From: Lacunisphaera sp.
GTDB lineage: Bacteria > Verrucomicrobiota > Verrucomicrobiia > Opitutales > Opitutaceae
Length of the DNA: 36,360 bases
Assembly (NCBI GenBank): GCA_029945855.1
Contig: JAQSDJ010000107.1
Coordinates: 1 to 36,360, forward strand
Direction: 5' to 3'
Shown here: piece after piece, positions 5,608 through 24,061 of the stretch
Position numbering within the stretch: the first letter of the stretch is position 1
Layout of the letters: each line of letters opens with the position of its first letter
Program-made: the position numbers and the translations under genes
Notes under the pieces: model-generated
What the model was told of the DNA's origin: nothing
Database searches by the model: none
What the model saw: only the letters and a program-made list of their open reading frames with translations

Positions 5608-5841
5608 TCAGGCGCCGTCGGTGCCGATGGAGCAGGTCGCGCAGTCGTTGGCGACTTGTTCCAGCAAGGCGACCTCCTCCGGGGTCACCGGCTGGCGGGT
5701 GACGGTGGAGAAACTGGTGTCGGCATTGCGGGTGAAGAAGTCCGGGGCCTGGACCCGGCACTGGTCGCAATCGATGCAACTCGAGTCCACATAGAAGCGG
5801 CCGGCAACATTTTCGGACAGGCGGTCGGATAGGGTAGCCAT
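5608..5841 (-). CDS. Single [4Fe-4S] ferredoxin
   Basis: A 77-residue acidic protein with Cys22-x2-Cys25-x2-Cys28 and a C-terminal Cys67 or Cys70 (NDCATCSI), the pattern of one-cluster ferredoxins that carry single electrons in the cytosol. The N-terminus (FYVDSSCIDCDQC) is typical of this family. It faces away from the nuo operon that starts 225 bases beyond its start codon. With PFOR at 20418-24014 it could form an electron path into complex I; that link is inference from neighbourhood. It converges on the kinase gene across a 105-base gap that holds weak hairpins only. Confidence 0.88.
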   Translation of the reverse strand: MATLSDRLSENVAGRFYVDSSCIDCDQCRVQAPDFFTRNADTSFSTVTRQPVTPEEVALLEQVANDCATCSIGTDGA

Positions 5842-6065: not shown

Positions 6066-6437
6066 ATGAGCGACCACCCTTATGCCTTCCTCGCCCTCTT
6101 CGCAGGGGTGGCACTGGCATTTCCGCTCATCCTCCTCAGCCTGACGTGGCTTTGGACGGGCATTTTTCAGCCGGCCAAGCCCGGAGCTTCGAAAAACTCC
6201 ACCTATGAATGCGGCCTACCTTCGTCCGGCGATTCGTGGATCCAGTTCAAGGCTCATTACTACCTCTACGCCATCCTCTTCCTGATTTTCGACGTCGAGG
6301 TGCTGTTCCTCCTGCCCTTTGCCGTCACCTTCACCAGCCTCCCGGTCGGCGCGCTGCTCGCCATGCTGGTCTTTATTCTCCTGCTCGCCGAGGGCCTCGT
6401 CTGGGCCTGGCACCGCGGTTACCTCGAGTGGAAATGA
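6066..6437 (+). CDS. nuoA: NADH-quinone oxidoreductase subunit A
   Basis: A 123-residue, three-span membrane subunit of respiratory complex I, near the quinone site. The family signature is clear: [20 protein letters not shown] in the loop and the acidic [13 protein letters not shown] motif in the second span. The length matches the family. It is the first gene of a 12-gene operon and is followed by nuoB after one base. The 224 bases upstream hold no other gene; the operon promoter is probably there, but I see no strong consensus. Confidence 0.96.
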
Positions 6438-6438
6438 C

Positions 6439-7116
6439 ATGAGCGAACTTCCATCCACGCCCCTTCCCGCGCCCTTCCCCGCCGCGGGCAACATCACCGA
6501 CGCCGACCGCGAGGAGCTGCGCCGGCATGGTATTTTGATGACCAGCCTGGAGGAGCTCTACAACTGGGGCCGCAGCAATTCCATCTGGCCGCTCCAGTTC
6601 GGCCTCGCCTGCTGCGCCATCGAGATGATCGCCGCCGCAACCGCGCGCTTCGACATCGCCCGTTTCGGCGCCGAAATTTTCCGTCCCTCCCCCCGCCAGG
6701 CCGACCTGATGATCGTCTCGGGCACCGTCACCAAGAAGATGGCCCCGCAGGTCGTCCGTCTCTGGAACCAGATGCCGGAGCCGAAATATTGCATCGCGAT
6801 GGGCGCCTGCGCGATCTCGGGCGGCCCCTTCAAGCAGGGCTACAACGTCCTCAAGGGCGTCGACCGTTTCATCCCCGTCGACATCTACATCCCCGGCTGC
6901 CCGCCGCGCCCCGAGGCCCTGCTCCACGGGCTCATGGAACTGCAGAAGCAGATCAAGCGCGAGCATCTCACCGGCGCCGACGCGGCCCGCCACACCCGTC
7001 CCGAGGTGCCGAGCGAGTTCCCTATCCCGGCCTACGGCGCACACGACCTCGAGCCGACCATGAATCCCGCGGTCTGGAAACCCGCGCCGCCGCTTCCCCG
7101 CTCCGGCAAGGCCTGA
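6439..7116 (+). CDS. nuoB: NADH-quinone oxidoreductase subunit B
   Basis: A 225-residue hydrophilic subunit that holds cluster N2, the last iron-sulfur centre before quinone. Ligand cysteines are visible: the Cys58-Cys59 pair (LACCAIEM), Cys124 (GACAISGG) and Cys154 (PGCPPRPE). The ATG at 6439 follows the nuoA stop with one base between; upstream in-frame starts lie inside nuoA and are rejected. The C-terminal ~45 residues after the conserved core are Pro-rich and variable. Confidence 0.97.
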
Positions 7117-7137
7117 GCCGCGCTTCACTTTCCCCTC

Positions 7138-7157
7138 TCACCCTCACTTTCACTCCT
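7138..7157 (+). repeat. Pyrimidine-rich leader before nuoC
   Basis: The spacer between nuoB and nuoC is almost pure C/T with TTTCAC/CTCAC words. It contains the 18-mer TCACCCTCACTTTCACTC (7138-7155), identical to 910-927 before the anti-sigma gene. No Shine-Dalgarno sequence is present ahead of the TTG start. Confidence 0.6.
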
Positions 7158-7823
7158 TTGGAATCCCTCGAGCAGATCCGCGACCGCCTCCTCGCCCGTT
7201 TCCCGGGCGCCACGGTTACGCTCGTGACCAATCCCGGCGTGGCCGCCGAGCATTCGCTGCTCCTCGACGCCGCCCATGGCGCCGAGCTCGCCCTTTTCCT
7301 GCGCGATGACCCCGCGCTGCAGCTCGACTACTGCTCCAACGCCACCGGCGTCGACTGGCCGGACAAGGAGATCACCGACGTCAAGAAGACCACCGTGCCC
7401 GATCCCGCCGGCGGCGCGCCCAAGGTCGTCGAGGAAAAAACCAAGCACGTCGAGCCGGGCTGCCTCGAGGCGGTCTACCACCTCTACTCGATGGCCCTGC
7501 GCCACGGCCCGGTCGTCATCCGGCTGCGCACCGCCAACCGCTCCGACCAGGTGAAGCTGCCCTCGCTCACCCCGGTGTGGCGCTCGTGCGATTTCCAGGA
7601 GCGCGAGATCTACGACCTCTACGGCATCGTGTTCGAGGGCCACCGTGACCTGCGCCGGCTCCTCATGTGGGAAGAGTTCAAGGACCACCCGATGCGCAAG
7701 GATTACGTGGACCCGGACGATTACGAGTGGGAGCCCACCCCGCACGCCGCCGTGCTCGAACGCGCGAAGGCCCACTATCCCGTGCCTCCCGCGGCCACTC
7801 CACCGGAGGCGCCCAAGCCATGA
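7158..7823 (+). CDS. nuoC: NADH-quinone oxidoreductase subunit C (TTG start)
   Basis: A 221-residue subunit of the peripheral arm, with the signature DFQEREIYDLYGIVFEGH at about 142-160 and the following HPMRKDY. The frame has no ATG near the family's N-terminus. The best start is TTG at 7158, 41 bases after the nuoB stop. A ~25-residue charged insertion (from DVKKTTVPDP) lies in the middle. The C-terminus is Pro/Ala-rich. It overlaps nuoD by four bases (ATGA). It is separate from nuoD, unlike the fused nuoCD of E. coli. Confidence 0.93.
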   Translation: MESLEQIRDRLLARFPGATVTLVTNPGVAAEHSLLLDAAHGAELALFLRDDPALQLDYCSNATGVDWPDKEITDVKKTTVPDPAGGAPKVVEEKTKHVEPGCLEAVYHLYSMALRHGPVVIRLRTANRSDQVKLPSLTPVWRSCDFQEREIYDLYGIVFEGHRDLRRLLMWEEFKDHPMRKDYVDPDDYEWEPTPHAAVLERAKAHYPVPPAATPPEAPKP

Positions 7824-8992
7824 GCGTCTCCGATCTCTCCTCGTTCACGCCCTCGTCCGGACCCACCGTCCGCGCCGTCAAGGATCCCTTCCACGGCGAC
7901 CTGCTCGAGGTCTCGATGGGGCCGCAGCATCCGTCCACCCACGGTGTGTTCCGCATGGTCGTGACGCTCGACGGCGAGGTCGTCGTCAAGCTCAAGCCCG
8001 TCTTCGGCTACCTGCACCGCAACCACGAGAAGATCGCCGAGAACACGACCTACCTCGGCTCGATGCCCTACACCGACCGGCTCGACTACCTGTGCTCGAT
8101 GACGACCAACTGGGCCTACGCGCTGGCCGTCGAGAAGCTCGCCGGCCAGGCCGTGCCCGACCGCGCCCAGTATCTCCGGGTCATCCTCGCCGAGATGACG
8201 CGTCTCGTGAACCACAGCTGCCTCGTCGGCTTCCTCTTCAACGACCTCGGCACCTCGTTCACCCCGCTGCTCTACGCGTTCCGCGAGCGTGAAAAAATCC
8301 TCGATCTCTTCGAGGCCCTGAGCGGCTCGCGCATGATGTGCAACTTCCAGCGCTTCGGCGGCTGCCGCGTCGACCCCACCCCCGAGTGGCTCGCCGCCGC
8401 CAGCCGGCTGGTCGACAATTATCCCCGCTTCCTCGACGAATACGAGACGATGCTCACGGCCAACGAGATCATGCTGGCCCGCACCCAGGGCATCGGGATC
8501 CTCGACGCCAAGCTAGCCGTCAACGCCGGCATCACCGGCCCCTGCCTCCGTGCCTCCGGCTACAATTACGACCTCCGCAAGGTCGACGGCTACGGTTTCT
8601 ACCCGCGCTTTGATTTCAAGGTGCCCCTCGGCGCGCACGGCGACACCTATGACCGCTACATGATGCGCATCCTCGAGATGCGCGAGTCGGTGAAGATCCT
8701 CCAGCAGGCCTTCCGCGATCTCCCCGGCGGCCCGGTCATGGACCCGAAGGCCAAGATCCGCGGCTTCCGGCCCAAGGCCGGCGAGGCCTACGGCCGCATC
8801 GAGAGCCCCAAGGGCGAGCTCGGCTTCTACCTCATCAGCGACGGCACGCCCAACCCCTACCGCTACCGCGTCCGCCCTCCCTCCCTCATCAATCTCACCC
8901 TCCTCGAGGAGATGTGCCTCGGCCACACCATCGCCGACTCCGTCGTCATCCTCGGCTCCGTCGACATCGTCCTCGGCGAGGTCGACCGCTGA
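7820..8992 (+). CDS. nuoD: NADH-quinone oxidoreductase subunit D
   Basis: A 390-residue subunit related to the large subunit of NiFe hydrogenases that forms the quinone pocket with NuoB. Family motifs are present: GPQHPSTHGVFR near residue 35 (with the quinone-site His), RNHEKIAE, and the C-terminal ending GSVDIVLGEVDR. The hydrogenase Ni-ligand cysteines are absent, as expected. The ATG at 7820 overlaps the nuoC stop. In the canonical operon nuoE, nuoF and nuoG would follow here; instead there is a 148-base repeat-bearing gap and then nuoI. Confidence 0.97.
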   Translation: MSVSDLSSFTPSSGPTVRAVKDPFHGDLLEVSMGPQHPSTHGVFRMVVTLDGEVVVKLKPVFGYLHRNHEKIAENTTYLGSMPYTDRLDYLCSMTTNWAYALAVEKLAGQAVPDRAQYLRVILAEMTRLVNHSCLVGFLFNDLGTSFTPLLYAFREREKILDLFEALSGSRMMCNFQRFGGCRVDPTPEWLAAASRLVDNYPRFLDEYETMLTANEIMLARTQGIGILDAKLAVNAGITGPCLRASGYNYDLRKVDGYGFYPRFDFKVPLGAHGDTYDRYMMRILEMRESVKILQQAFRDLPGGPVMDPKAKIRGFRPKAGEAYGRIESPKGELGFYLISDGTPNPYRYRVRPPSLINLTLLEEMCLGHTIADSVVILGSVDIVLGEVDR

Positions 8993-9001
8993 CGGGAACG
9001 C

Positions 9002-9134
9002 CTGAAAGAGCGAAAACTGAAGGACTGAAATGAAATCTCCCGAAACAACCTCCCGGCCCGCCTTCCACCGCCCCAGGTCCATTTCAGTTTCCCCTTCTTC
9101 AGCTTTTCAGTCTTTCCGCCTTTCAGCCCTTTCC
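9002..9134. repeat. Iterated CTGAAA/TTTCAG spacer between nuoD and nuoI
   Basis: The left part (9002-9035) repeats CTGAAA-like words and the right part (9081-9134) repeats their complement TTTCAG (ATTTCAGTTT, CTTCAG, TTTTCAGTC, CTTTCAG). Together they form a long imperfect inverted repeat with a GC-rich centre. It is the only gap of more than ~41 bases in the nuo operon and lies where nuoEFG are normally found. Confidence 0.65.
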
Positions 9135-9140
9135 TAAACC

Positions 9141-9776
9141 ATGCTCGGCTCCGGCATCATCAACGGCCTGATCGTCACCGCGAAGAACTTCGTGGGAAGC
9201 TACCATGATCCCAAGCGGATGGTGACCGTCCAGTATCCGGAGGAGCGCGCCAAGCTGCCGGAGAACTACCGCAACTTCCCCTTCCTCATCACCGAGAACG
9301 CCACCGACCCGATGGGCACGCTGCGCTGCGTCGCCTGCCAGATCTGCGAGAAGGAATGCCCGCCGCAGTGCATCTACATCGAGAAGAGCAAGGACAAGAA
9401 GCCGGACGCCACCGGCAAGCCCCAGCTCTACCCGGCCGTCTTCGCCATCGACACCTCCGTCTGCATGAGCTGCCAGATCTGCGTCGAGGTCTGCCCCTTC
9501 GACGCGATCAAGATGGACCAGGTGTTTGAGGTGGCCGCCACCGACCGTTTCACCGGCCTGCTCCTGGACCGCGAACAGCTCGCCAAGCCCAACAGCTACT
9601 TTCACGAGATCCACCCGACCGACGCCGCCGAGGTCGACACCCGCCTCGCCACCGAGCGCCAGGCCGCTGAGGAGAAAGCCAAGGCCGCCGCCGCCGCGAA
9701 GGCCGCCGCCGCCGCCAAAGCGGCCGCGCCCAAAGCCGCCGTGAAACCCGCGGCTGAAGGCGGGCCCACCGCATGA
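9141..9776 (+). CDS. nuoI: NADH-quinone oxidoreductase subunit I with Ala/Lys-rich tail
   Basis: A 211-residue subunit carrying clusters N6a and N6b. The two ferredoxin motifs are CVACQICEKECPPQC (about 58-72) and CMSCQICVEVCPF (about 107-119), with the usual spacing. The conserved core ends near residue 165. The last ~40 residues are an Ala/Lys/Glu-rich tail (KAKAAAAAKAAAAAKAAAPK) not found in typical NuoI of 150-180 residues; it may be a flexible or helical extension. It overlaps nuoH by ATGA. The gene order I-H is the reverse of the usual H-I. Confidence 0.95.
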   Translation: MLGSGIINGLIVTAKNFVGSYHDPKRMVTVQYPEERAKLPENYRNFPFLITENATDPMGTLRCVACQICEKECPPQCIYIEKSKDKKPDATGKPQLYPAVFAIDTSVCMSCQICVEVCPFDAIKMDQVFEVAATDRFTGLLLDREQLAKPNSYFHEIHPTDAAEVDTRLATERQAAEEKAKAAAAAKAAAAAKAAAPKAAVKPAAEGGPTA

Positions 9777-11005
9777 TCATCGCGGCCATAGATTCCTACC
9801 TCGAGGTCGCCCCCCTCGCCTGGCGCGACGCCGTCGTGCAGTGGTGCCCCGAGCCCACCCAGTGGCTGGTCCACCACCTGATCACGATCGTCGCGATCCT
9901 CGCCGTCTTCGGCACCCTCTTCGCCTTCACCCCCCTCGCCGAGCGGAAGCTGCTCGGCCGCCTGCAAAACCGGCTCGGGCCCAACCGCTCCGGCCTGCCG
10001 TGGTGGCAGAACGGCCCCAAGCTCTGGGGCCTCACCCAGCCCTTCGCCGACGCCGTGAAGGCGCTGACCAAGGAGGACATCGTCCCCGCCGCCGCCGACA
10101 AGCTCCTGCACTTCCTCGCCCCGGTGCTCATCGTGGCGTTCTCGCTGCTGACCTTCGCCGTGCTGCCCTTCGGCCGGCACCTGGTCCCCGTCGGGCTCGA
10201 CGCCGCGCTCCTCTACTTCTTCGCCGCCGGTTCCGCCACCGAGCTGGCCATCTTCATGGCGGGGTGGGCCAGCCGGAACAAATACTCGCTGCTCGCCGCC
10301 ATGCGCGCACTCGCGCAGGTCATCAGCTACGAGCTGCCCCTCATCCTCTCCGTCGTGCCGATCGTGCTCATCGCCGGCACGCTCTCCCTGCAGGACATCG
10401 TCCTCGCCCAGGGCTTCTGGACCTTCGGCTTCCTGCCGCACTGGTTCGTCTTCACGCCGTGGGGCTTCGCGGGCTTCCTTCTCTTCCTCGTCTCGGCGCT
10501 GGCCGAGAGCAACCGCTCGCCGTTCGACCTGCCCGAGGCCGAGAGCGAGCTCATCGCCGGCCACCTCACGGAATACTCCGGCTTCAAGTATGCGCTGTTC
10601 TTCATGGCCGAGTATTTCGGCCTCACCGCCCTGAGCGGTCTCGGCGTCACCCTCTTCCTCGGCGGCTGGCAGGCCCCGTGCGCCTTCCTGCAGTTCATCC
10701 CCTCCTGGCTCTGGTTCATGGGCAAGGTTATCGGGATGCTTCTTCTCTTCATCTGGATCCGCGGCACGTTGCTCCGCCTCCGCATCGATCAGCTCACGCG
10801 CCTCGCCTGGCAGTTCATGGTGCCGCTGACGCTCATCAACCTCGGCAACGCCGCCTTCTGGTCGCTGACCGCCGGGTGGACCGGCCCGCTGCAACTCGTC
10901 CGCTGGGGCGTGTCGCTCGCCATCATCGTCATCCCCTTTGTCCTCCTGGGCCGCCGCCTGAGCGCCGGCCGCCACCCGCGCACCTACCGCTACGCCGCGT
11001 CATGA
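9773..11005 (+). CDS. nuoH: NADH-quinone oxidoreductase subunit H
   Basis: A 410-residue membrane subunit (about eight or nine spans) that joins the membrane arm to the quinone chamber. Signatures are AERKLLGRLQNRLGPNR near residue 60, and the charged loop ESNRSPFDLPEAESELIAG with the following EYSGFKYALFFMAEY. It is longer than many homologues (~330-350), mainly through an N-terminal hydrophilic segment and two extra hydrophobic stretches. It overlaps both neighbours by four bases. Confidence 0.96.
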   Translation: MIIAAIDSYLEVAPLAWRDAVVQWCPEPTQWLVHHLITIVAILAVFGTLFAFTPLAERKLLGRLQNRLGPNRSGLPWWQNGPKLWGLTQPFADAVKALTKEDIVPAAADKLLHFLAPVLIVAFSLLTFAVLPFGRHLVPVGLDAALLYFFAAGSATELAIFMAGWASRNKYSLLAAMRALAQVISYELPLILSVVPIVLIAGTLSLQDIVLAQGFWTFGFLPHWFVFTPWGFAGFLLFLVSALAESNRSPFDLPEAESELIAGHLTEYSGFKYALFFMAEYFGLTALSGLGVTLFLGGWQAPCAFLQFIPSWLWFMGKVIGMLLLFIWIRGTLLRLRIDQLTRLAWQFMVPLTLINLGNAAFWSLTAGWTGPLQLVRWGVSLAIIVIPFVLLGRRLSAGRHPRTYRYAAS

Positions 11006-11520
11006 CCTTCGCGCTCATCATCATATCCGCCCTGATCCTTGGCTGCGCCGCGGTGGCGATGGCGTTGCGCAACCTGATCCACAGCGCGCTGCTGCTCATC
11101 GGCTCGTGGGCGGGCGTCGCGGCTTTCTACCTCTGGGCGGGCGCCGAGTTCGTGGCCTTCGCCCAGATCCTCATCTACATCGGCGCCATCTCCATGGTCG
11201 TGCTCTTCGCGGTGCTCCTCACCCGGCAGGGCGACGCGCCGGAGCCGGTGGAATTCCCCTCCCTGAGCCGCTTTGTCACCGGGCTGATCGCCGGCGGCGG
11301 CGTGGCGGGCGTCTTGATCGGCGCGATTTTGGGCATGCCATTCGATGTCCGGACGGCCCAGTCCGCCCCCGCTCTGTCTGTCAAGGAACTGGGCGCGCAG
11401 CTGATGGGGCCGCACGCGGTCTCGCTGCTCGTCATCGGCCTGCTCCTCACCGTGGCGCTGCTCGGCGCCGTGCTGCTGGCCTCGGACCGGCGCCCCGACC
11501 AACCGGAGGACACCCCATGA
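11002..11520 (+). CDS. nuoJ: NADH-quinone oxidoreductase subunit J
   Basis: A 172-residue, five-span membrane subunit. The central motif FAQILIYIGAISMVVLFAVLL (conserved Tyr and Gly of TM3) is recognisable. The start at 11002 overlaps the nuoH stop (ATGA); the open frame extends far upstream only because of high GC. It overlaps nuoK by four bases. Confidence 0.93.
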   Translation: MTFALIIISALILGCAAVAMALRNLIHSALLLIGSWAGVAAFYLWAGAEFVAFAQILIYIGAISMVVLFAVLLTRQGDAPEPVEFPSLSRFVTGLIAGGGVAGVLIGAILGMPFDVRTAQSAPALSVKELGAQLMGPHAVSLLVIGLLLTVALLGAVLLASDRRPDQPEDTP

Positions 11521-11828
11521 GCCCGCTGCAGATCTGCCTCCTCCTCTCCAGCCTGCTCTTCTGCATCGGCCTTGTCGGCGTGCTCTCGCGCGGCAGCGCC
11601 ATCCTCGTGCTGCTCGGCGTCGAGCTGATGCTGAACGCCGCGAACATAAACTTCATCGCCTTCTGGCGTTACGGCCCGAATCCCGACGCGGGCACGGGCA
11701 TCGTCTTCGTCCTGTTCTCCATCGCCGCTGCCGCGGCCGAGGCCGCCGTCGGCTTCGCCCTGGTCATCGCGGTCTACCGCCACCAGCGGAACATCCGCCT
11801 GCAGGAGGCGAACCGCCTCAAGGGCTGA
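11517..11828 (+). CDS. nuoK: NADH-quinone oxidoreductase subunit K
   Basis: A 103-residue, three-span antiporter-like small subunit. Both conserved membrane glutamates are visible: GVELMLNAANINF (TM2) and AAEAAVGFALV (TM3). Length matches the family. It overlaps nuoJ by ATGA and is followed by nuoL after three bases. Confidence 0.96.
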   Translation: MSPLQICLLLSSLLFCIGLVGVLSRGSAILVLLGVELMLNAANINFIAFWRYGPNPDAGTGIVFVLFSIAAAAAEAAVGFALVIAVYRHQRNIRLQEANRLKG

Positions 11829-11831
11829 ACC

Positions 11832-13859
11832 ATGACGCTCTCCGCCCAATATCTCTGGCTCATCCCCGCGCTGCCGCTCGCCGCCGCCGCCGTCGGGGCG
11901 CTGGTGCCGCGCACCGGCCGGGCCCTCGCCGCCGGCGCCGCCATCGCCGCGCTGGTCGCCTCCTTCCTCGTCTCCTGCGTCGCGCTGGTCACCGCACTCG
12001 CCGACCCGGCCGCCAAGCTCGTCTACAACTTCGCCTGGTTCGACCTCGGCGCCGGTGTCTTCCGCCTCGGCTGGCTGCTCGACCCACTCACGGCGTTCAT
12101 GTGCGTGATGGTCACCTTCGTCGGCACCCTGATCTTCATATTCAGCCTCGGCTACATGAAGGCGGACGCGAACTTCAAGCAGTTCTTCTGCTTCCTTAGC
12201 CTCTTCGCCGCGGCGATGCTCGGCCTGATCGTCGCCAACAGCCTCCTGCTGCTCTTCATCAGCTGGGAACTCGTCGGCCTCGCCTCCTATCTGCTCATCG
12301 GTTTCTGGTTCCACAAGCCGTCCGCCGCCGCCGCCGCGAAAAAGGCCTTCATCACGACGCGCATCGGCGACCTCGGCCTGCTGCTCGGCCTGCTCTGGCT
12401 CTACGACTCCACCGGCTCGCTGCTCTTCTTCGACGGCGGCGCCGGCGTGCTCGAGGCCGCCGCGCTGGGCTCGCTCGCGGCCCAGGTCACCGTGGGCGGG
12501 CTCGTGGTCTCCACCGCCATCGGGCTCCTGATTTTCTGCGGCGCCATCGGCAAGTCCGGTCAGTTCCCGCTACATGTGTGGCTCCCCGACGCGATGGAGG
12601 GCCCGACGCCCGTCAGCGCGCTCATCCACGCCGCCACGATGGTGGCCGCCGGCGTCTTCCTCATCGCCCGCGTCTACCCGCTGATGCAAGCCGACGCCCT
12701 GCTCGCCGCCGTGCCGGTCCACGCCCTGACCGTCGTGGCCTTCATCGGCGCCATCACCGCGCTCATGGGCGCGTGCATCGCCGTCGCGCAAAACGACATC
12801 AAGCGCGTCCTCGCCTTCTCCACCGTCTCGCAGCTTGGCTACATGATGCTCGCGCTGGGCGTCGGCTCGTGGGTCGCCGCCATCTTCCACCTGCTCACGC
12901 ACGCCTTCTTCAAGGCCCTCCTCTTCCTCGGCGCCGGCTCGGTCATCCACGCCGCGCACCACGAGCAGGACATTCGCTCGCTTGGCGGATTGTCGGCGAA
13001 GATGAAGGTCACCTTCGTCACCTTCGCCCTCGGCACCTGCGCGCTCGTCGGCGTGCCGCTGTTCTTCTCCGGCTTCTGGTCGAAGGAGGCCATCCTCCAC
13101 GCCGCGCACGGCTGGGATGTCTCGCATCTGCCCTTCTACGCCGCGGTCCTCGGCGTGGTCCTCACTGCTTTCTACAACACCCGCCTGATGGCCGAGACTT
13201 TCTTCGGCAAACCGCGCTCGCCCGCGGCCGAGCACGCCCACGAGAACAGCCCCGTCATGACGCTGCCGCTCGTGGTGCTGGCCGTCTGCGCTGTGGTGCT
13301 CGGTTTCCTCAACACCCCGGTCTGGCCCTGGCTGGACACCATGCTCCTCGGCAAGACCGAGGTGCACGGCCATTCCCTCATGGAAGGGGCCGGTCTGATG
13401 GGCTTGTCCGTCGTCCTCGTCGCCCTGGGTCTCGGCGCCGGCTGGGCCCTCTATGGCCGCCGGACGCGCGTCAGCGCGACCGCCCCCGATCCCCTCGCGG
13501 TCAAGGCGCCGCGCCTCATGGCTTTCCTCGCGGCCAAGCTCAAGTTCGACGAGCTCTACGATGCCACCGTCGGCCGGCTCAACTCCGCCTCCGCCGCCTT
13601 CGCTGATTTCCTTGAATTCTGGGTATGGGGCGGTCTCGTGACCTTGCTGGCCCGGCTCGGCGAATTCACCGGTCTGGTGAACCGCGAGACCGATGAGCGC
13701 ACCCTCAACGGCGGCTTCGACAACGTGAGCGAACAGGTTCGCGGTCCCGGCCGGGTCTATTCCCGCGCTCAGACCGGCGACGTGCACGGCTACCTGCGGT
13801 TCCTCGCCCTCGGCTTCGTCGTCCTCGTGCTGCTCGTCGTGATGGGAGGTGCCAAGTGA
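11832..13859 (+). CDS. nuoL: NADH-quinone oxidoreductase subunit L with extended lateral-helix region
   Basis: A 675-residue proton-pumping subunit, about 60 residues longer than E. coli NuoL. Pumping residues are present: TM5 Glu (SWELVGLASY), TM7 Lys (GKSGQFPLHVWLPDAM) and TM12 Lys (FWSKEAIL). The C-terminal part after ~550, where the long lateral helix HL and last span lie, carries extra sequence at about residues 598-630 (LVTLLARLGEFTGLVNRETD and ERTLNGGFD) before the conserved QTGDVHGYL anchor. NuoL insertions in this helix have been described in complexes with a second NuoM, which is the case here. It overlaps the next gene by GTGA. Confidence 0.95.
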   Translation: MTLSAQYLWLIPALPLAAAAVGALVPRTGRALAAGAAIAALVASFLVSCVALVTALADPAAKLVYNFAWFDLGAGVFRLGWLLDPLTAFMCVMVTFVGTLIFIFSLGYMKADANFKQFFCFLSLFAAAMLGLIVANSLLLLFISWELVGLASYLLIGFWFHKPSAAAAAKKAFITTRIGDLGLLLGLLWLYDSTGSLLFFDGGAGVLEAAALGSLAAQVTVGGLVVSTAIGLLIFCGAIGKSGQFPLHVWLPDAMEGPTPVSALIHAATMVAAGVFLIARVYPLMQADALLAAVPVHALTVVAFIGAITALMGACIAVAQNDIKRVLAFSTVSQLGYMMLALGVGSWVAAIFHLLTHAFFKALLFLGAGSVIHAAHHEQDIRSLGGLSAKMKVTFVTFALGTCALVGVPLFFSGFWSKEAILHAAHGWDVSHLPFYAAVLGVVLTAFYNTRLMAETFFGKPRSPAAEHAHENSPVMTLPLVVLAVCAVVLGFLNTPVWPWLDTMLLGKTEVHGHSLMEGAGLMGLSVVLVALGLGAGWALYGRRTRVSATAPDPLAVKAPRLMAFLAAKLKFDELYDATVGRLNSASAAFADFLEFWVWGGLVTLLARLGEFTGLVNRETDERTLNGGFDNVSEQVRGPGRVYSRAQTGDVHGYLRFLALGFVVLVLLVVMGGAK

Positions 13860-15376
13860 AATCCCTCCCGCTGCTTTCCCTGATCGTGTTCGCCCCGTGG
13901 GCCGGAGCCGTGGTGCTTGCCTTCGTCGGCCGGCACGTCGGCGCCAACGCCAACCGCACGATCGCCCTGCTCTCCAGTTTTTCCACGCTGGCGCTGGCCG
14001 GCGTGGCCCTCGCGTCCTTCGATCCCGCCGCCGTCGGCTACCAGTTCACGGAGCGGCATGCCTGGATCAGTGCGCTGCACGTCGACTATCACCTCGGCCT
14101 CGACGGCCTGAGCCTGCTGCTCGTGCTGCTCACCGGCATCATTTCGCCGCTCTGCCTGCTCGCCTCGTGGCGGGTCGGGCGCTGCCCGCGCGCCTTCGGG
14201 ATGCTCTTCCTCCTCCTGCAGGGCGCGGCCCTCGGCGTGTTCCTGGCGCTGGATTTCTTCCACTGGTTCGTCTTCTGGGAACTCAGCCTCGTGCCGGCGT
14301 TTTTCCTGATCAAGATCTGGGGCGGCCCCGGGGCGTCGCGCGCGGCCTACCAGTTCGTCATCTACACCCTCGCCGGCGGCGCCTGCATGCTGCTCGGCTT
14401 CGCCGCCCTCTACGTCGCGACCGGCACGCTGAACTTCACCGAGCTCGCCCAGCTGGCGGCCGCGGGCGAACTCGCCCCGAAGCTCGCCACGCTCGGCACC
14501 TTCTGGCCGCAGGTCGTCTTCGTCGGCGTCCTCTTGGGCCTGGCGGTCAAGGTTCCGCTCTTCCCCTTCCACACCTGGCTGCCCCCGGCGTATGCGGAGG
14601 CTCCGACCGGCGTCTCGATGTTCCTCACCGGCGTGATGTCGAAGATGGGCGTCTACGGTTTCCTGCGGATCCTCTGGCCGCTCTTCCCGGAGCCGCTGCA
14701 CGCCGCGGCCCCCTGCCTGCTCTGGCTCGCGCTCGGCGGCGTGGTGCTCGGTGCCTTCGCAGCGATGAAGCAGACCGACCTCAAGCGCATGATCGCCTAC
14801 TCGTCGATCAACCACCTCAGCTACTGCCTGCTCGCGCTGTTCGCCGTCGCCGGCGCGTCGAAGCCCGACGCCGCGGCCGCCGCGCTCAGCGGCACCCTCC
14901 TGCAGATGTTCAACCACGGCCTCTCCGCCGCCGCGCTCTTCGCCTGCGTCGGCATCATCGAGGCCCGCTCGGGTGGCCCGCGCGGCCTGAACGACTTCGG
15001 CGGCCTGCGCACCGTCACCCCGCTCTTCGCCGGTTTCTGCGGCATCGCGCTGTTCTCGTCCCTCGGCCTGCCGGGGCTCAACGGCTTCGTCGGGGAATTC
15101 CTCATCTTCCGCGGCGTGTTCGGCCTCGCGCCGTGGGCCGCCGGCGTCGCCTGCCTCGGCCTGCTCGCCACCGCGCTCTTCCTCCTCACCTTCTGGCAGC
15201 GCGTCTTCCACGGCCCCGTCGCCGCCGGCGTCGCGGCCTTCCGCGACCTCGACCGCGTGGAATTCCTCACGCTGCTGCCGCTCGTCATCCTGATGTTCCT
15301 GCTGGGCGTGCTGCCGCAGATCGTCATCGCGCTCTTCAACCCGCTCGTCACCGCCTGGGCGGCGAACCTGCCATGA
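13856..15376 (+). CDS. nuoM: NADH-quinone oxidoreductase subunit M, first copy (GTG start)
   Basis: A 506-residue antiporter-like proton-pumping subunit. All key charges are visible: TM5 Glu (VFWELSLVPAFFLIKIWG), TM7 Lys232 (LAVKVPLFPFHTWLP), TM8 Lys (SKMGVYGFLRI) and TM12 Glu (GFVGEFLIF). It starts with GTG at 13856, overlapping the nuoL stop and preceded by GGGAGG. It looks like the conventional NuoM of the pair. It overlaps the second copy by ATGA. Confidence 0.94.
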   Translation: MKSLPLLSLIVFAPWAGAVVLAFVGRHVGANANRTIALLSSFSTLALAGVALASFDPAAVGYQFTERHAWISALHVDYHLGLDGLSLLLVLLTGIISPLCLLASWRVGRCPRAFGMLFLLLQGAALGVFLALDFFHWFVFWELSLVPAFFLIKIWGGPGASRAAYQFVIYTLAGGACMLLGFAALYVATGTLNFTELAQLAAAGELAPKLATLGTFWPQVVFVGVLLGLAVKVPLFPFHTWLPPAYAEAPTGVSMFLTGVMSKMGVYGFLRILWPLFPEPLHAAAPCLLWLALGGVVLGAFAAMKQTDLKRMIAYSSINHLSYCLLALFAVAGASKPDAAAAALSGTLLQMFNHGLSAAALFACVGIIEARSGGPRGLNDFGGLRTVTPLFAGFCGIALFSSLGLPGLNGFVGEFLIFRGVFGLAPWAAGVACLGLLATALFLLTFWQRVFHGPVAAGVAAFRDLDRVEFLTLLPLVILMFLLGVLPQIVIALFNPLVTAWAANLP

Positions 15377-16875
15377 ACCTGCTGCCCTGGACCATCTACG
15401 TCTCGTTCGCCGGCGCGTGCCTCGCGCTGGTCGCCGGGGCGCGCTCGGCCGCCGCCGCCCGCTGGACGGCCCTCGCCACCGCCGTGGCCGCCACGACGCT
15501 GACCTTCCTCGCCGCGCGGGACTTCGTCCCCGGCGCCGGCCTGCAGACCCTGGTGGATGTGCCGTGGATCGCCGGGCTCGGTGTGAGCTACCACCTCGCC
15601 GTCGACGGCATCAGCCTGACGCTGCTCGTGCTCACCGGCCTCGCCGCCACCGCGGGCATCCTGTTTTCCTGGAACATCGAGGAGCGCCCGGGCGAGTTCT
15701 TCGCCCTGTTCCTCGCGCTGATCGGCGGCGTGTATGGCGTCTTCCTCAGCGCCGACGTCTTCCTGCTGTTCGTGTTCTACGAGATCGCGATCGTGCCGAA
15801 GTATTTCCTCATCGCGATCTGGGGCTCCACCAATCGCGAATACGGCGCGATGAAGCTGGTGCTCTATTCCTTCGCGGGCAGCAGCCTGGTGCTCGCCGGC
15901 ATGATCTGGGCCTTCGCCGCGGGCGACGCCACCGGGTTCGGCCTGACGGAGCTTGCCCTCGCGGGCGCCCGCCTCCCCTTCCCCGAGCAGGTCGCCATCT
16001 TTGCGCTCCTGTTCACCGGCTTCGCCACCCTGGCGGGCATGTTCCCGCTGCACACGTGGGCGCCGACCGGCCACGTGGCCGCGCCGACTGCCGCCTCGAT
16101 GCTGCTCGCCGGCGTCGTCATGAAGCTCGGCGCCTACGGCTGCCTGCGCGTGGCCATGCCGCTGTTCCCCGACGCCTTCCTTTACTGCCAGCCGGTGATC
16201 GCCTGGCTCGCCGTGGTGGGCATCGTCTACGCAGGCTGCATCGCCCTCGTGCAGGATGACTTCAAGTTTGTCATCGGCTACTCGAGCGTGAGCCACATGG
16301 GTTTCGTGCTGCTCGGCCTCGCGGCCGCCACGCCGCTGGCGCTGGCGGGCGCGGTGCTCCAGATGTTCTCGCACGGCGTCATCGCCGGCCTGCTCTTTGC
16401 CGTGGTCGGCCGCATGGTCTATGAGCGCACCCATACCCGCCGCCTCGCCGACCTGAAGGCCATGCCGCTGCACCGGTTGCTGCCGTTCGCCGCCACCATC
16501 TTCGTCGTCGCCGGCCTCGCCTCGCTCGGCCTGCCGGGCTTCAGCGGCTTTCCGGCCGAGTTGAGCATCCTCATCGGGACCTGGCAGGAGAATCCGCTCT
16601 GGGCCGTGGTCGCCGCCCTCGGGATCATCGTCGCCGGCGCCTTCACCCTGCGCGTCATCCAGATTTCCTTCTTCGGCACCACCAACCTGGCCGCCATCGC
16701 GGCCGCCGGGGACCATCCCCTGCCCCCGATCACCCGGGCCGAGAAGGCCGGTGCCCTCCTGTTGATCTCCGCGACGCTTTATGTCGGCCTCAAGCCGGAC
16801 GTGCTGCTCGACTGGATCGTGCCCGCACTGCAATCGCCGGTCTTCCAGGCCGTGATGAAAGGAGGCAACCCATGA
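15373..16875 (+). CDS. nuoM: Second, diverged NuoM paralogue lacking the TM7 lysine
   Basis: A 500-residue antiporter-like subunit directly after the first NuoM. It keeps TM5 Glu137 (FYEIAIVPKYFLIAIWG), TM8 Lys251 (VVMKLGAYGCLRV) and TM12 Glu396 (GFPAELSIL). At the TM7 lysine position, five residues before the PLH/PFH motif, it has Leu220 (FATLAGMFPLHTWAP). The two copies are too different to be a recent duplication. Tandem nuoM genes are known from so-called 2M complexes, where the extra subunit lengthens the membrane arm. Whether this copy pumps is open. It overlaps both neighbours by ATGA, so it is co-translated at matching stoichiometry. Confidence 0.92.
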   Translation: MNLLPWTIYVSFAGACLALVAGARSAAAARWTALATAVAATTLTFLAARDFVPGAGLQTLVDVPWIAGLGVSYHLAVDGISLTLLVLTGLAATAGILFSWNIEERPGEFFALFLALIGGVYGVFLSADVFLLFVFYEIAIVPKYFLIAIWGSTNREYGAMKLVLYSFAGSSLVLAGMIWAFAAGDATGFGLTELALAGARLPFPEQVAIFALLFTGFATLAGMFPLHTWAPTGHVAAPTAASMLLAGVVMKLGAYGCLRVAMPLFPDAFLYCQPVIAWLAVVGIVYAGCIALVQDDFKFVIGYSSVSHMGFVLLGLAAATPLALAGAVLQMFSHGVIAGLLFAVVGRMVYERTHTRRLADLKAMPLHRLLPFAATIFVVAGLASLGLPGFSGFPAELSILIGTWQENPLWAVVAALGIIVAGAFTLRVIQISFFGTTNLAAIAAAGDHPLPPITRAEKAGALLLISATLYVGLKPDVLLDWIVPALQSPVFQAVMKGGNP

Positions 16876-18329
16876 GCACCCCCTATGGCGAACTCCTGAT
16901 CGCGCTGCGCCCTGAGATCTGCCTCGTCGGCGGCGCGCTGGCCGTGCTGGCCGTCGACCTGCCGAAAAACTCCCGCAGCGCCCAGGCGCGCCTGCACCTT
17001 TCCGTGGCCCTCGGCCTGCTCGCCCTCGCCACCGCCTATGCGTGGAACCTGAGTGCGGGCGTGCCGGGGCCGCTGTTCGGCGGCGTCCTGACGCTGGACA
17101 TGCTGGGCCAGGCCACCCGCGCCGGCGTGCTGGGCCTCGCGGTCCTGACCCTCGGTATCACCGCCGGCACCTCGCGGCTGCGCCACCCGGCGGAGCTGGT
17201 GGCGATGATTTTGCTCGCGACCGCGGGCTTCACGCTCATGGCGGTCGCCCAGCAGCTGCTGCTGGCGTTCCTCGCGCTCGAGTCGGCCAGCCTCTCGCTC
17301 TACGTGCTCGCGGGCTTCGACAAGACGCGGCCCGAGTCCGCCGAGGCGGGCCTGAAGTATTTCCTGTTCGGCGGCGTCTCCGCGGCCTTCCTGCTCTTCG
17401 GCTTCAGCCTGATCTACGGCCTGACCGGCTCGATCGAGCTGCCGGTGATCTCGGCCCAGCTGGCCCTGACCGGCCCGAGCCCGCTGCTCGTCGTGGCGCT
17501 CGTGATGATTCTGGTCGGCTTCGGTTACAAGGCCGCCGCCGCCCCGTTCCACCTGTGGGCACCGGATGTCTATGAGGGCGCCCCGGCTCCGTCCGCCGCG
17601 CTCATCGCCTCGGCCTCGAAGCTGGCCGGCCTGGCCCTGTTTGTGCGGCTGCTCTGGCCCGGGCTCGGGGCGGCGTCCGGCAACCTGAGCGGGGCTGCCG
17701 GCTGGCTGCCCGTGGTGGCGATGATTTCCGGCGCCTCGATTTTGCTCGGTAATTTTGCCGCGCTCGCCCAGCGGAACGTCCGCCGGCTGCTCGCCTACTC
17801 GGCCATTGCCCATGCCGGCGCCCTGCTGCTCGGCGTCATCGCCGCCGGCCTGATCGGACCGGGGGCTCTTTATTATTATGCGCTGACCTACGGCCTCGCC
17901 ACGGTCGGGGCCTTCGGGGTCATCGCCGTGGTCGAACGCTCCGGCCGCTGCCAGGATATCACGGATCTCGCCGGCCTGCGGGCCCGCTCGCCGTTGCTCG
18001 CCGGCTGCCTCTTTGTGTTCGTGCTGTCGCTGGCGGGTATCCCGCCCCTGGCGGGGTTTGTCGGCAAGTTCGTGGTCTTCACCGGCGCACTGCAGATGGG
18101 CGGAATCGCCAGCCCCGCCGGCTGGCTGGCCGTGCTCGCCATCGCGCTGAGCGCCGTGGCCCTCTATTATTATCTGGTCATCCTGAAGCAGGCCCTGGTC
18201 GTCGCCCCGGCCAAGGGGGCGGCGCCCATCAAGGTGCCCGCCCCCGCCGCCCTCGCGCTGCTGGGCGCCGCCGCGCTGATCGTGCTCTTCGGCGTGTGGC
18301 CGTCGCTGCTGCTGGGGTTGTTCCAGTAA
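16872..18329 (+). CDS. nuoN: NADH-quinone oxidoreductase subunit N
   Basis: A 485-residue antiporter-like subunit and last gene of the operon. Key residues are visible: TM5 Glu (LALESASLSLYVLAGF), TM7 Lys (GYKAAAAPFHLWAPDVYEG), TM8 Lys (SASKLAGLALFVRL) and TM12 Lys (LAGFVGKFVVF). Length matches the family. It overlaps the second nuoM by ATGA and is followed after 24 bases by a strong terminator. Confidence 0.96.
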   Translation: MSTPYGELLIALRPEICLVGGALAVLAVDLPKNSRSAQARLHLSVALGLLALATAYAWNLSAGVPGPLFGGVLTLDMLGQATRAGVLGLAVLTLGITAGTSRLRHPAELVAMILLATAGFTLMAVAQQLLLAFLALESASLSLYVLAGFDKTRPESAEAGLKYFLFGGVSAAFLLFGFSLIYGLTGSIELPVISAQLALTGPSPLLVVALVMILVGFGYKAAAAPFHLWAPDVYEGAPAPSAALIASASKLAGLALFVRLLWPGLGAASGNLSGAAGWLPVVAMISGASILLGNFAALAQRNVRRLLAYSAIAHAGALLLGVIAAGLIGPGALYYYALTYGLATVGAFGVIAVVERSGRCQDITDLAGLRARSPLLAGCLFVFVLSLAGIPPLAGFVGKFVVFTGALQMGGIASPAGWLAVLAIALSAVALYYYLVILKQALVVAPAKGAAPIKVPAPAALALLGAAALIVLFGVWPSLLLGLFQ

Positions 18330-19428: not shown

Positions 19429-20417
19429 TCACACCCGCCAGCTCTGCAGCACGCGGATGTAGTTCGCGCGCTCATAGGCGGAGGGATCCGGGCAGCGGCG
19501 CTGGTTGAGCGCGCCGCGGAGCTGGTCGACGCTCTCGTAGCCGTGGTCCTCCATCCATTTCCGCATGCCCTGGAGCAGCGTGTAGAGATAGCGGGGACCA
19601 TTCTTGAGGAGCACCGAGACCAGTTGGATGGTGTGCGCCCCGGCCAGCAGGGCCTTGATCGCATCATCGGAGGTGTGCACGCCGCCGGTCGCCGAGAGCG
19701 AGCCCTTCATGTGCGGCGAGAGGTTGGCCAGCCAGCGCAGGCGCAGCAGCAGTTCGCTGGAGTCAGAGAGCTTCAGCTGCGGATGCACCTCGAAATCCTC
19801 GAGGTTGAAGTCGGGCTGGTAAAACCGGTTGAACAGCACCACGCCCTTCGCGCCGGCCTTTTCGAGCTCCAGGCCGAAGTTCACCGGCGAGGCATGGAAC
19901 GAGGAGATCTTCACCGCGACGGGAATGTGCACCGCACCGACCACGCTCTTGACGGTCTCGAGCATGTCCGCCTCGACCTCGGCGCCGGAAATATTCGGAT
20001 CCGTGGCGAGGTTGTAGAGGTTCAGCTCGACGGCATCCGCGCCGGCTTCCTGGAAGCGCCGCGCGAAGTCGGTCCAGCCGCCGGGCTGGTAGCCATTCAG
20101 CGAGGCGATGACCGGCACCTTCACCAGCGCCTTCAGGCCCTGGATCTGGCGCAGGTAGCGGTCGAGCGACAGCTGATACTCCGAGTATTCGGGGAAGTAG
20201 CTGGTCGCCTCGGCGCTGCCGGAGGCCGCCAGCTCGATGTCGCGCACCATGGCGCGCTGCTCGAGGTCGATCTGCTCCTCGAAGAGCGAGCGCATGACCA
20301 GCGCGCCGGCGCCGGCGTCCTGGAGCTGGCAGGCCAGCTTGACGTTGTCGCAGAACGGCGAGGCGCCGACGATGAGGGGGTTGCTCAGCTTGAGCCCGAG
20401 GTAGGTGGTCGCGAGTT

Positions 20418-20421
<4 letters not shown>
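19429..20421 (-). CDS. Dihydroorotate dehydrogenase-like flavoprotein
   Basis: A 330-residue TIM-barrel protein of the class-1 DHODH superfamily, expected to bind FMN (N-terminal LGLKLSNPLIVGASPF; C-terminal phosphate-binding GGVHTSDDAIKALLAGA). The catalytic-loop motif of true class-1 enzymes (SCPN) is replaced by LNLYNLATDP, so the usual Cys base is missing and pyrimidine synthesis is doubtful. Its start overlaps the PFOR stop by four bases (ATGA), so it is co-translated with PFOR and probably linked to its redox chemistry. In other genomes this type of gene is also found beside PFOR; substrate unknown. Confidence 0.85.
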
Positions 20422-24014
<3,593 letters not shown>

Positions 24015-24061
24015 GGTTGTAAAAAGGACGGCATCCATAATGCCACATATGCCCTAGCGGC

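Follow-up and report, generated by a model that had tools for sequence, protein, structure and literature searches.

The window analysed here, a stretch of 36,360 nt that makes up contig C107 of a Lacunisphaera sp. draft genome (5.0 Mb, 330 contigs, 99.1% complete), carries a 12-gene complex I operon with two different nuoM genes. The operon, nuoA-B-C-D-I-H-J-K-L-M1-M2-N, lies on the + strand at positions 6066-18329, has intergenic gaps of at most 148 bases, and encodes the core subunits A-D and H-N; the genes for the NADH module, E, F and G, are absent from it. We estimate a probability of roughly 0.7 that the product is a ferredoxin:menaquinone oxidoreductase of the so-called 2M kind with four antiporter-like subunits. 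Reduced ferredoxin would be made by the NifJ protein encoded next door, and electrons would enter at NuoI and run via clusters N6a/N6b and N2 to menaquinone. This electron flow would power the membrane arm, whose four antiporter-like subunits would follow one another as N-M2-M1-L, and a NuoL lateral helix that is about 27 residues longer than usual would bridge this arm. M1 would be the standard NuoM with a lysine in transmembrane helix 7 (TM7), adjoining L, and M2 a separate TM7-leucine lineage adjoining N.

The two nuoM genes are real, and their tandem arrangement is far beyond chance. nuoM1 (13856..15376, + strand, GTG start, 506 residues) and nuoM2 (15373..16875, + strand, ATG start, 500 residues) sit between nuoL and nuoN, overlap by 4 bases (15373-15376) and have reading frames free of internal stop codons. 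Against the NDH_I_M profile (TIGR01972, cut-off 263.8), M1 scored 470.3 and M2 436 bits, and they are the only uninterrupted stretches in the whole genome above this cut-off. A third NuoM (344 bits) is present in two fragments and is part of a separate, canonical complex I. At the protein level, M1 and M2 share 37% identity across 481 aligned columns, and blastn matches between the two genes are all short, the longest of 58 bases; therefore, they are no recent copies of each other. Queries with NuoE, NuoF and NuoG gave no match in the whole window. On all of these points, namely two full-length antiporter-like NuoM proteins with overlapping genes, the lack of recent duplication and the missing nuoEFG at this locus, a preliminary description of the window was borne out. 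Comparison of predicted structures with the PDB confirmed the NuoL and NuoM folds, and nothing beyond this.

The same description had termed the two genes diverged, which is correct but understated, since M1 and M2 stem from separate old NuoM lineages. This follows from a tree of 59 rows (56 NuoM and 3 NuoN sequences) from chosen loci rather than from all 80 M2-bearing loci found in the Opitutae set, with MrpD-like hits and locus L029 left out. M1 forms a clade of its own (17 rows, support 97/96), and M2 falls inside a 27-row clade (100/100) together with Bacteroidota NuoMs and those from the canonical complex I of Verrucomicrobiota. Monophyly of M1 and M2 was rejected (approximately unbiased (AU) test, p-AU 0.000297), which rules out a tandem duplication that would have made the two genes sisters. 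With the TM7 column kept in the alignment, the tree shows a single change of the TM7 residue. In counts that dropped open reading frames scoring ≤150 bits in phmmer, M1 had a lysine at the position of Escherichia coli K234 in 72 of 74 rows, the remaining 2 being gaps. The M1 of the window, in which K232 is the corresponding residue, has all four pump residues, i.e. the TM5 glutamate, the TM7 and TM8 lysines and the TM12 glutamate.

A second NuoM together with a lengthened NuoL, in which an insertion extends the lateral helix by about 26 residues, has been described for 2M complexes in passages of PMC9040806 and PMC6606698 that cite Chadwick et al. Both features are present here. The lateral-helix segment of NuoL measured 86 residues in all 70 rows examined (69 loci and the window). 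Counted from the FDxLY motif, the NuoL tail comprises 104 residues, versus 77 in the canonical NuoL of the same genome and 73 in E. coli, which corresponds to insertions of 27 and 31 residues, respectively. In Bacteroides, Prevotella and genome G012, where the loci examined encode a single-M complex and no NuoEFG, the tail has 75-77 residues. The earlier proposal of a 2M complex I is thus supported by both the second full-length NuoM and the NuoL insertion. Judged by its genes, and set beside the published 2M clades by description only, the complex belongs to this already known kind.

The occurrence of M1 and M2 in relatives indicates that they go together. In the Opitutae set, M1 adjoins M2 in 73 of the 80 loci, the other seven being three loci cut at a contig end and four split operons, and none of the 80 showed a match for E, F or G. 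We also drew 288 Verrucomicrobiota genomes of at least 90% completeness evenly across the phylum. M1 matches (E ≤ 1e-60) were present in 38 of them, and 15 of these represented true M1 (identity ≥49%): 13 of the 26 genomes sampled from the family of the window, its own genome included, and two from another family of the class. M2 was found in all 15, on another contig in G160 and at a separate locus in G166. The 13 family genomes without M1 also lacked M2, and their NuoMs were just 36-39% identical to M2. Consequently, M1 and M2 were jointly present or jointly absent in 26 of 26 family genomes. Both were retained even in five genomes where they occupy separate loci, i.e. G166 and the four Puniceicoccales metagenome-assembled genomes (MAGs) G288-G291 with the loci L106, L110, L105 and L098. 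In these four MAGs, which we guess to originate from termite guts, the operon is broken up, with M2-N and M1 on different contigs. M2 stands beside nuoN in all five split genomes, and the neighbours in these genomes (M2 with N, M1 with L) fit an arm order L-M1-M2-N. Two M1 pieces in the operon of L071 and two M2 pieces in L108 were observed as well, possibly the result of frame breaks in the sequences.

The genomic surroundings point to ferredoxin as the electron donor. Beyond nuoN, and convergent with it, lie an HDOD gene, a gene for a dihydroorotate-dehydrogenase-like protein (19429..20421, - strand; PF01180 42.1 bits, cut-off 27) and, overlapping the latter, a gene for a NifJ-type pyruvate:ferredoxin oxidoreductase (PFOR) of 1206 residues (20418..24038, - strand; PF01855 260.6 bits, with PF01558 and PF10371). 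Of the four POR_N genes over the cut-off in the genome, this nifJ scores best. A gene for a single-cluster ferredoxin (Fer4_13) diverges from nuoA (5608..5841, - strand; Pfam PF13370 57.7 bits, cut-off 24.5). PFOR and the dehydrogenase-like gene also adjoin nuoN in the class relative G013. The motifs needed for a path over N6a/N6b and N2 to the quinone are intact, with two 4Fe-4S motifs in NuoI, the cysteine motifs of NuoB and the histidine motif of NuoD. As to the quinone, a MenA match over the cut-off and the absence of any MqnA/D-family match in the genome of the window speak against the futalosine pathway and make menaquinone via the classical route likely. From midpoint potentials, with -500 mV taken for ferredoxin, we calculated that electron transfer from ferredoxin to menaquinone could pay for five protons up to a proton-motive force of about 170 mV, and transfer from NADH only up to about 98 mV. 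Genomic neighbours in a minority of the loci thus suggest that the complex probably takes its electrons from ferredoxin.

Several observations weigh against the view outlined so far. Leaving out loci with too little flanking sequence and PFOR hits of ≤55% identity, PFOR was located within 6 kb of nuoN in just 10 of the 55 loci, from the set of 80, that had this much sequence, and a ferredoxin gene flanked the operon in just 10 of the 23 loci with both flanks. Each of the 17 genomes tested (15 with the 2M operon and 2 without) gave a NuoF-family match, in 3 of them over the cut-off, and so did 2 of the 4 presumed termite-gut relatives. Among the 15 2M genomes, 2 have a NuoF match over the curated cut-off; in the window's own genome, the NuoF match lies inside the canonical complex I. 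M1 stands beside nuoL in only three of the five split genomes. Nor is the long NuoL helix confined to complexes with two NuoMs: in G272 (locus L155) a NuoL with a tail of 103 residues occurs with a single detected NuoM, of the lysine type, in both locus and genome, which rules out the insertion as a unique 2M mark, and NuoL helix insertions outside 2M complexes are also reported in a passage of PMC9040806. Furthermore, the AlphaFold model of NuoL is weak at the helix end, with a per-residue confidence (pLDDT) below 50 for residues 607-656. Lastly, the M2 residue that corresponds to E. coli K234 is a leucine in 80 of 80 rows (L220 in the window). M2 retains the TM5 glutamate, the TM8 lysine and the TM12 glutamate in all 80, which gives it three of the four pump residues. 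A fifth proton per cycle has the standing of a hypothesis for the 2M family, and the lack of the TM7 lysine in M2 makes this idea less certain here.

The leucine deserves attention because K234, K265 and E144 of the E. coli NuoM are described as essential in PMC5061711, and according to a review (PMC10212512), the TM7 lysine of every antiporter-like subunit is paired with a conserved TM5 glutamate. The TM7 leucine is common to M2 and to the single-M complexes of Bacteroidota and Verrucomicrobiota. What sets M2 apart is a lysine six residues past the TM5 glutamate (K143 in the window), which occurred in all 80 M2 sequences. In the tree set, 18 of 18 M2 sequences had this lysine, and it was absent from all 9 other leucine-type NuoMs, all 17 M1 and all 12 other lysine-type NuoMs. 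It may, at a guess, compensate for the missing TM7 lysine. It is conceivable, although we hold this only tentatively, that the complex is a mosaic in which a TM7-lysine M1 has been joined to an old TM7-leucine M2 that cannot use the glutamate/lysine ion pair thought to be common to all antiporter-like subunits. In that case, M2 might serve as a proton relay or a modified gate, perhaps via its own TM5 lysine, rather than as a fourth ordinary pump, the number of protons need not be five, and the single-M clade of Bacteroidota and Verrucomicrobiota would work without the supposedly essential NuoM lysine. Apart from a remark on HycC in PMC5061711, the listed matches in the open-licence literature contained no description of a NuoM clade without this lysine. 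The TM7 lysine is also absent from the canonical Verrucomicrobiota NuoM (L025 and L026 in the window's own genome) and from Bacteroidota NuoMs, with L143 and L144 as further loci, and TM8 of the canonical NuoM in the window's genome contains two lysines side by side.

The widespread NuoF-family matches would be accounted for if the same 2M arm oxidised NADH with a borrowed module, either NuoEFG or a NuoF-like diaphorase, that is supplied by the canonical complex I or by another source; a separate nuoF has indeed been proposed as a partner in Nitrospira (passage in PMC6606698). We regard this as rather unlikely, as G289 and G290 keep M1 and M2 and no NuoF match was found in them (their completeness is not given), and as NADH funds five protons only at the lower proton-motive force calculated above. 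Operation in reverse, with the proton-motive force and quinol reducing ferredoxin as proposed for the 2M complexes of nitrite oxidisers such as Nitrospira (PMC6606698, PMC12342949), appears improbable for the Opitutaceae complex, because the neighbouring enzyme is a PFOR, a source of reduced ferredoxin in catabolism. The preliminary description had mentioned that 2M complexes may drive energetically hard reactions. This has been proposed for reverse flow in Nitrospira, but here the neighbours point to forward ferredoxin oxidation. Slightly more doubtful still is the view that M1 and M2 are alternatives, each complex containing just one of them, so that two forms of a three-pump complex would result. 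G272, where a long NuoL helix accompanies a single detected NuoM, speaks in its favour; the joint presence or absence of M1 and M2 in all sampled family genomes, the retention of both when unlinked, and the single length of the NuoL segment in all 70 rows speak against it. Finally, the assignment of either M gene to an Mrp antiporter or to a hydrogenase of group 4, which the preliminary description had named for the second gene as a refuting finding, can be dismissed. These proteins do come from the same superfamily, and at scores under the curated cut-offs the genome also encodes a pair resembling MrpA/MrpD (C295) and a protein resembling hydrogenase-4 subunit B (C85). However, NDH_I_M is the best-scoring profile for both M proteins, with its cut-off exceeded, and their genes are flanked by nuoL and nuoN in an operon that holds only nuo genes.

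The ferredoxin-linked 2M complex was then compared with known systems, for which papers are cited with regard to individual passages. Its combination of a second NuoM with missing nuoEFG, called an unusual pairing beforehand, is not new, because a clade-2 2M complex I without NuoEFG has been reported for heterotrophic marine Thaumarchaea (PMC7300363; clades as in the scheme of Chadwick et al. 2018), and the pairing is partly in print for Nitrospira, the 2M complex of which lacks NuoE and NuoF (PMC6606698). The thaumarchaeal complex is alike in its second NuoM, the lack of NuoEFG and an uncertain electron donor, whereas the Opitutaceae complex is bacterial and has ferredoxin and PFOR genes nearby. 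The clade-3 complex of Nitrospira shares the second NuoM, the lengthened NuoL, separate NuoC and NuoD, and a coexisting canonical complex I (PMC6606698, PMC12342949). However, the complex of N. moscoviensis has retained NuoG in an enlarged form and is missing NuoE, NuoF and, according to that report, NuoH, whereas the Opitutaceae complex has NuoH and no NuoG. The order nuoL-M-M-N also occurs in the 2M complex of Chloroflexi, where, unlike here, nuoBCDI are located apart and nuoCD are fused (PMC7117926), and Acidobacterium capsulatum encodes a duplicated nuoM in addition to a canonical complex I (PMC11636273), which likewise coexists with the 2M form here. Like the Opitutaceae complex, the 11-subunit complex I (Desulfitobacterium and the Bacteroidota form) has no NADH module at the locus; the Desulfitobacterium enzyme feeds menaquinone, and PFOR/ferredoxin has been proposed as its donor (PMC11238625). 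The NuoMs of Bacteroides and Prevotella share the TM7 leucine with M2, but the 11-subunit form has one NuoM and, at the Bacteroidota loci, a NuoL helix of normal length (tails of 75 and 77 residues). HycC of the E. coli formate hydrogenlyase also has a leucine at the NuoM K234 position (PMC5061711), but it is an antiporter-like subunit of a hydrogenase complex, whereas M2 is one of complex I. Searches of the open-licence literature yielded no paper on a 2M complex I in Verrucomicrobia and, among the listed matches, none on an Opitutaceae or Opitutus complex I of this kind. Among the matches listed, nothing was found on the Opitutae member, on its combination of two NuoM lineages or on an M2 clade without the lysine.

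For every nuo gene of the operon, the top-scoring NCBIfam profile was that of its named subunit, although A, C, H, I and J remained under the curated cut-offs. In the order of the + strand, these genes are nuoA (6066..6437; 99.5 bits, cut-off 163), nuoB with the cysteine motifs of cluster N2 (6436..7116; TIGR01957 244.1 bits, cut-off 142.7), nuoC, the start codon of which is uncertain (7137..7823; TIGR01961 100.7 bits, cut-off 122), nuoD with an HPSTHG motif (7814..8992; NF004739 432.6 bits, cut-off 360), nuoI with two CxxCxxCxxxCP motifs at residues 63 and 108 (9141..9776; TIGR01971 91 bits, cut-off 113), nuoH (9773..11005; NF004741 299 bits, slightly below the cut-off of 305), nuoJ (11002..11520; NF005163 84.8 bits, cut-off 174), nuoK (11517..11828; NF004320 97.3 bits, cut-off 57), nuoL with 675 residues and the lengthened lateral helix (11832..13859; TIGR01974 595.7 bits, over the cut-off), the two nuoM genes, and nuoN (16872..18329; TIGR01770 348.6 bits, cut-off 332.6). 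The canonical complex I of the same genome, which has E, F, G and one NuoM, is encoded on contigs C231 and C326, the ends of which share a 12-base overlap inside the canonical nuoM. The closest named relative by M2 is a Lacunisphaera sp. MAG (Opitutaceae, Verrucomicrobiota), with 86% identity over M2.

In some Opitutaceae, the 2M operon is followed, a few kb further downstream, by genes for another complex I that lacks NuoEFG (L059, L073, L094, L097, L148 of G010 and L150 of G282). Where this complex is fully seen (G010 and G282), two MrpD-like subunits take the place of NuoL, an arrangement shared with the rhizobial complex encoded on pSymA of Sinorhizobium meliloti. A complex of this kind also occurs in G099, G119 and other families. 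The second MrpD-like subunit (L148:8574-10382, L150:4241-6091, L152:8089-9882 and similar) has an asparagine at the TM7 lysine position, and both kinds of four-pump arm therefore hold one subunit without this lysine. In the genome of the window, an MrpD-like protein beside an MrpA-like gene (L027:1282-3237, contig C295) has about 158 extra N-terminal residues in an open frame, possibly due to a fusion or a late start.

Experiments look possible, because some relatives with the operon have records that are not titled as metagenome-assembled, namely Ereboglobus sp. PH5-10, Geminisphaera colitermitum TAV2, IMCC26134 and Opitutaceae EW11. A conserved lysine-less NuoM clade beside a lysine-bearing NuoM in one and the same operon represents a natural test of models that centre on the TM7 lysine, and the M1/M2 pair also bears on the number of protons pumped by 2M complexes. 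For the Opitutaceae themselves, the ferredoxin-linked context suggests that a longer pump has been matched to a stronger electron donor, instead of serving reverse electron flow.

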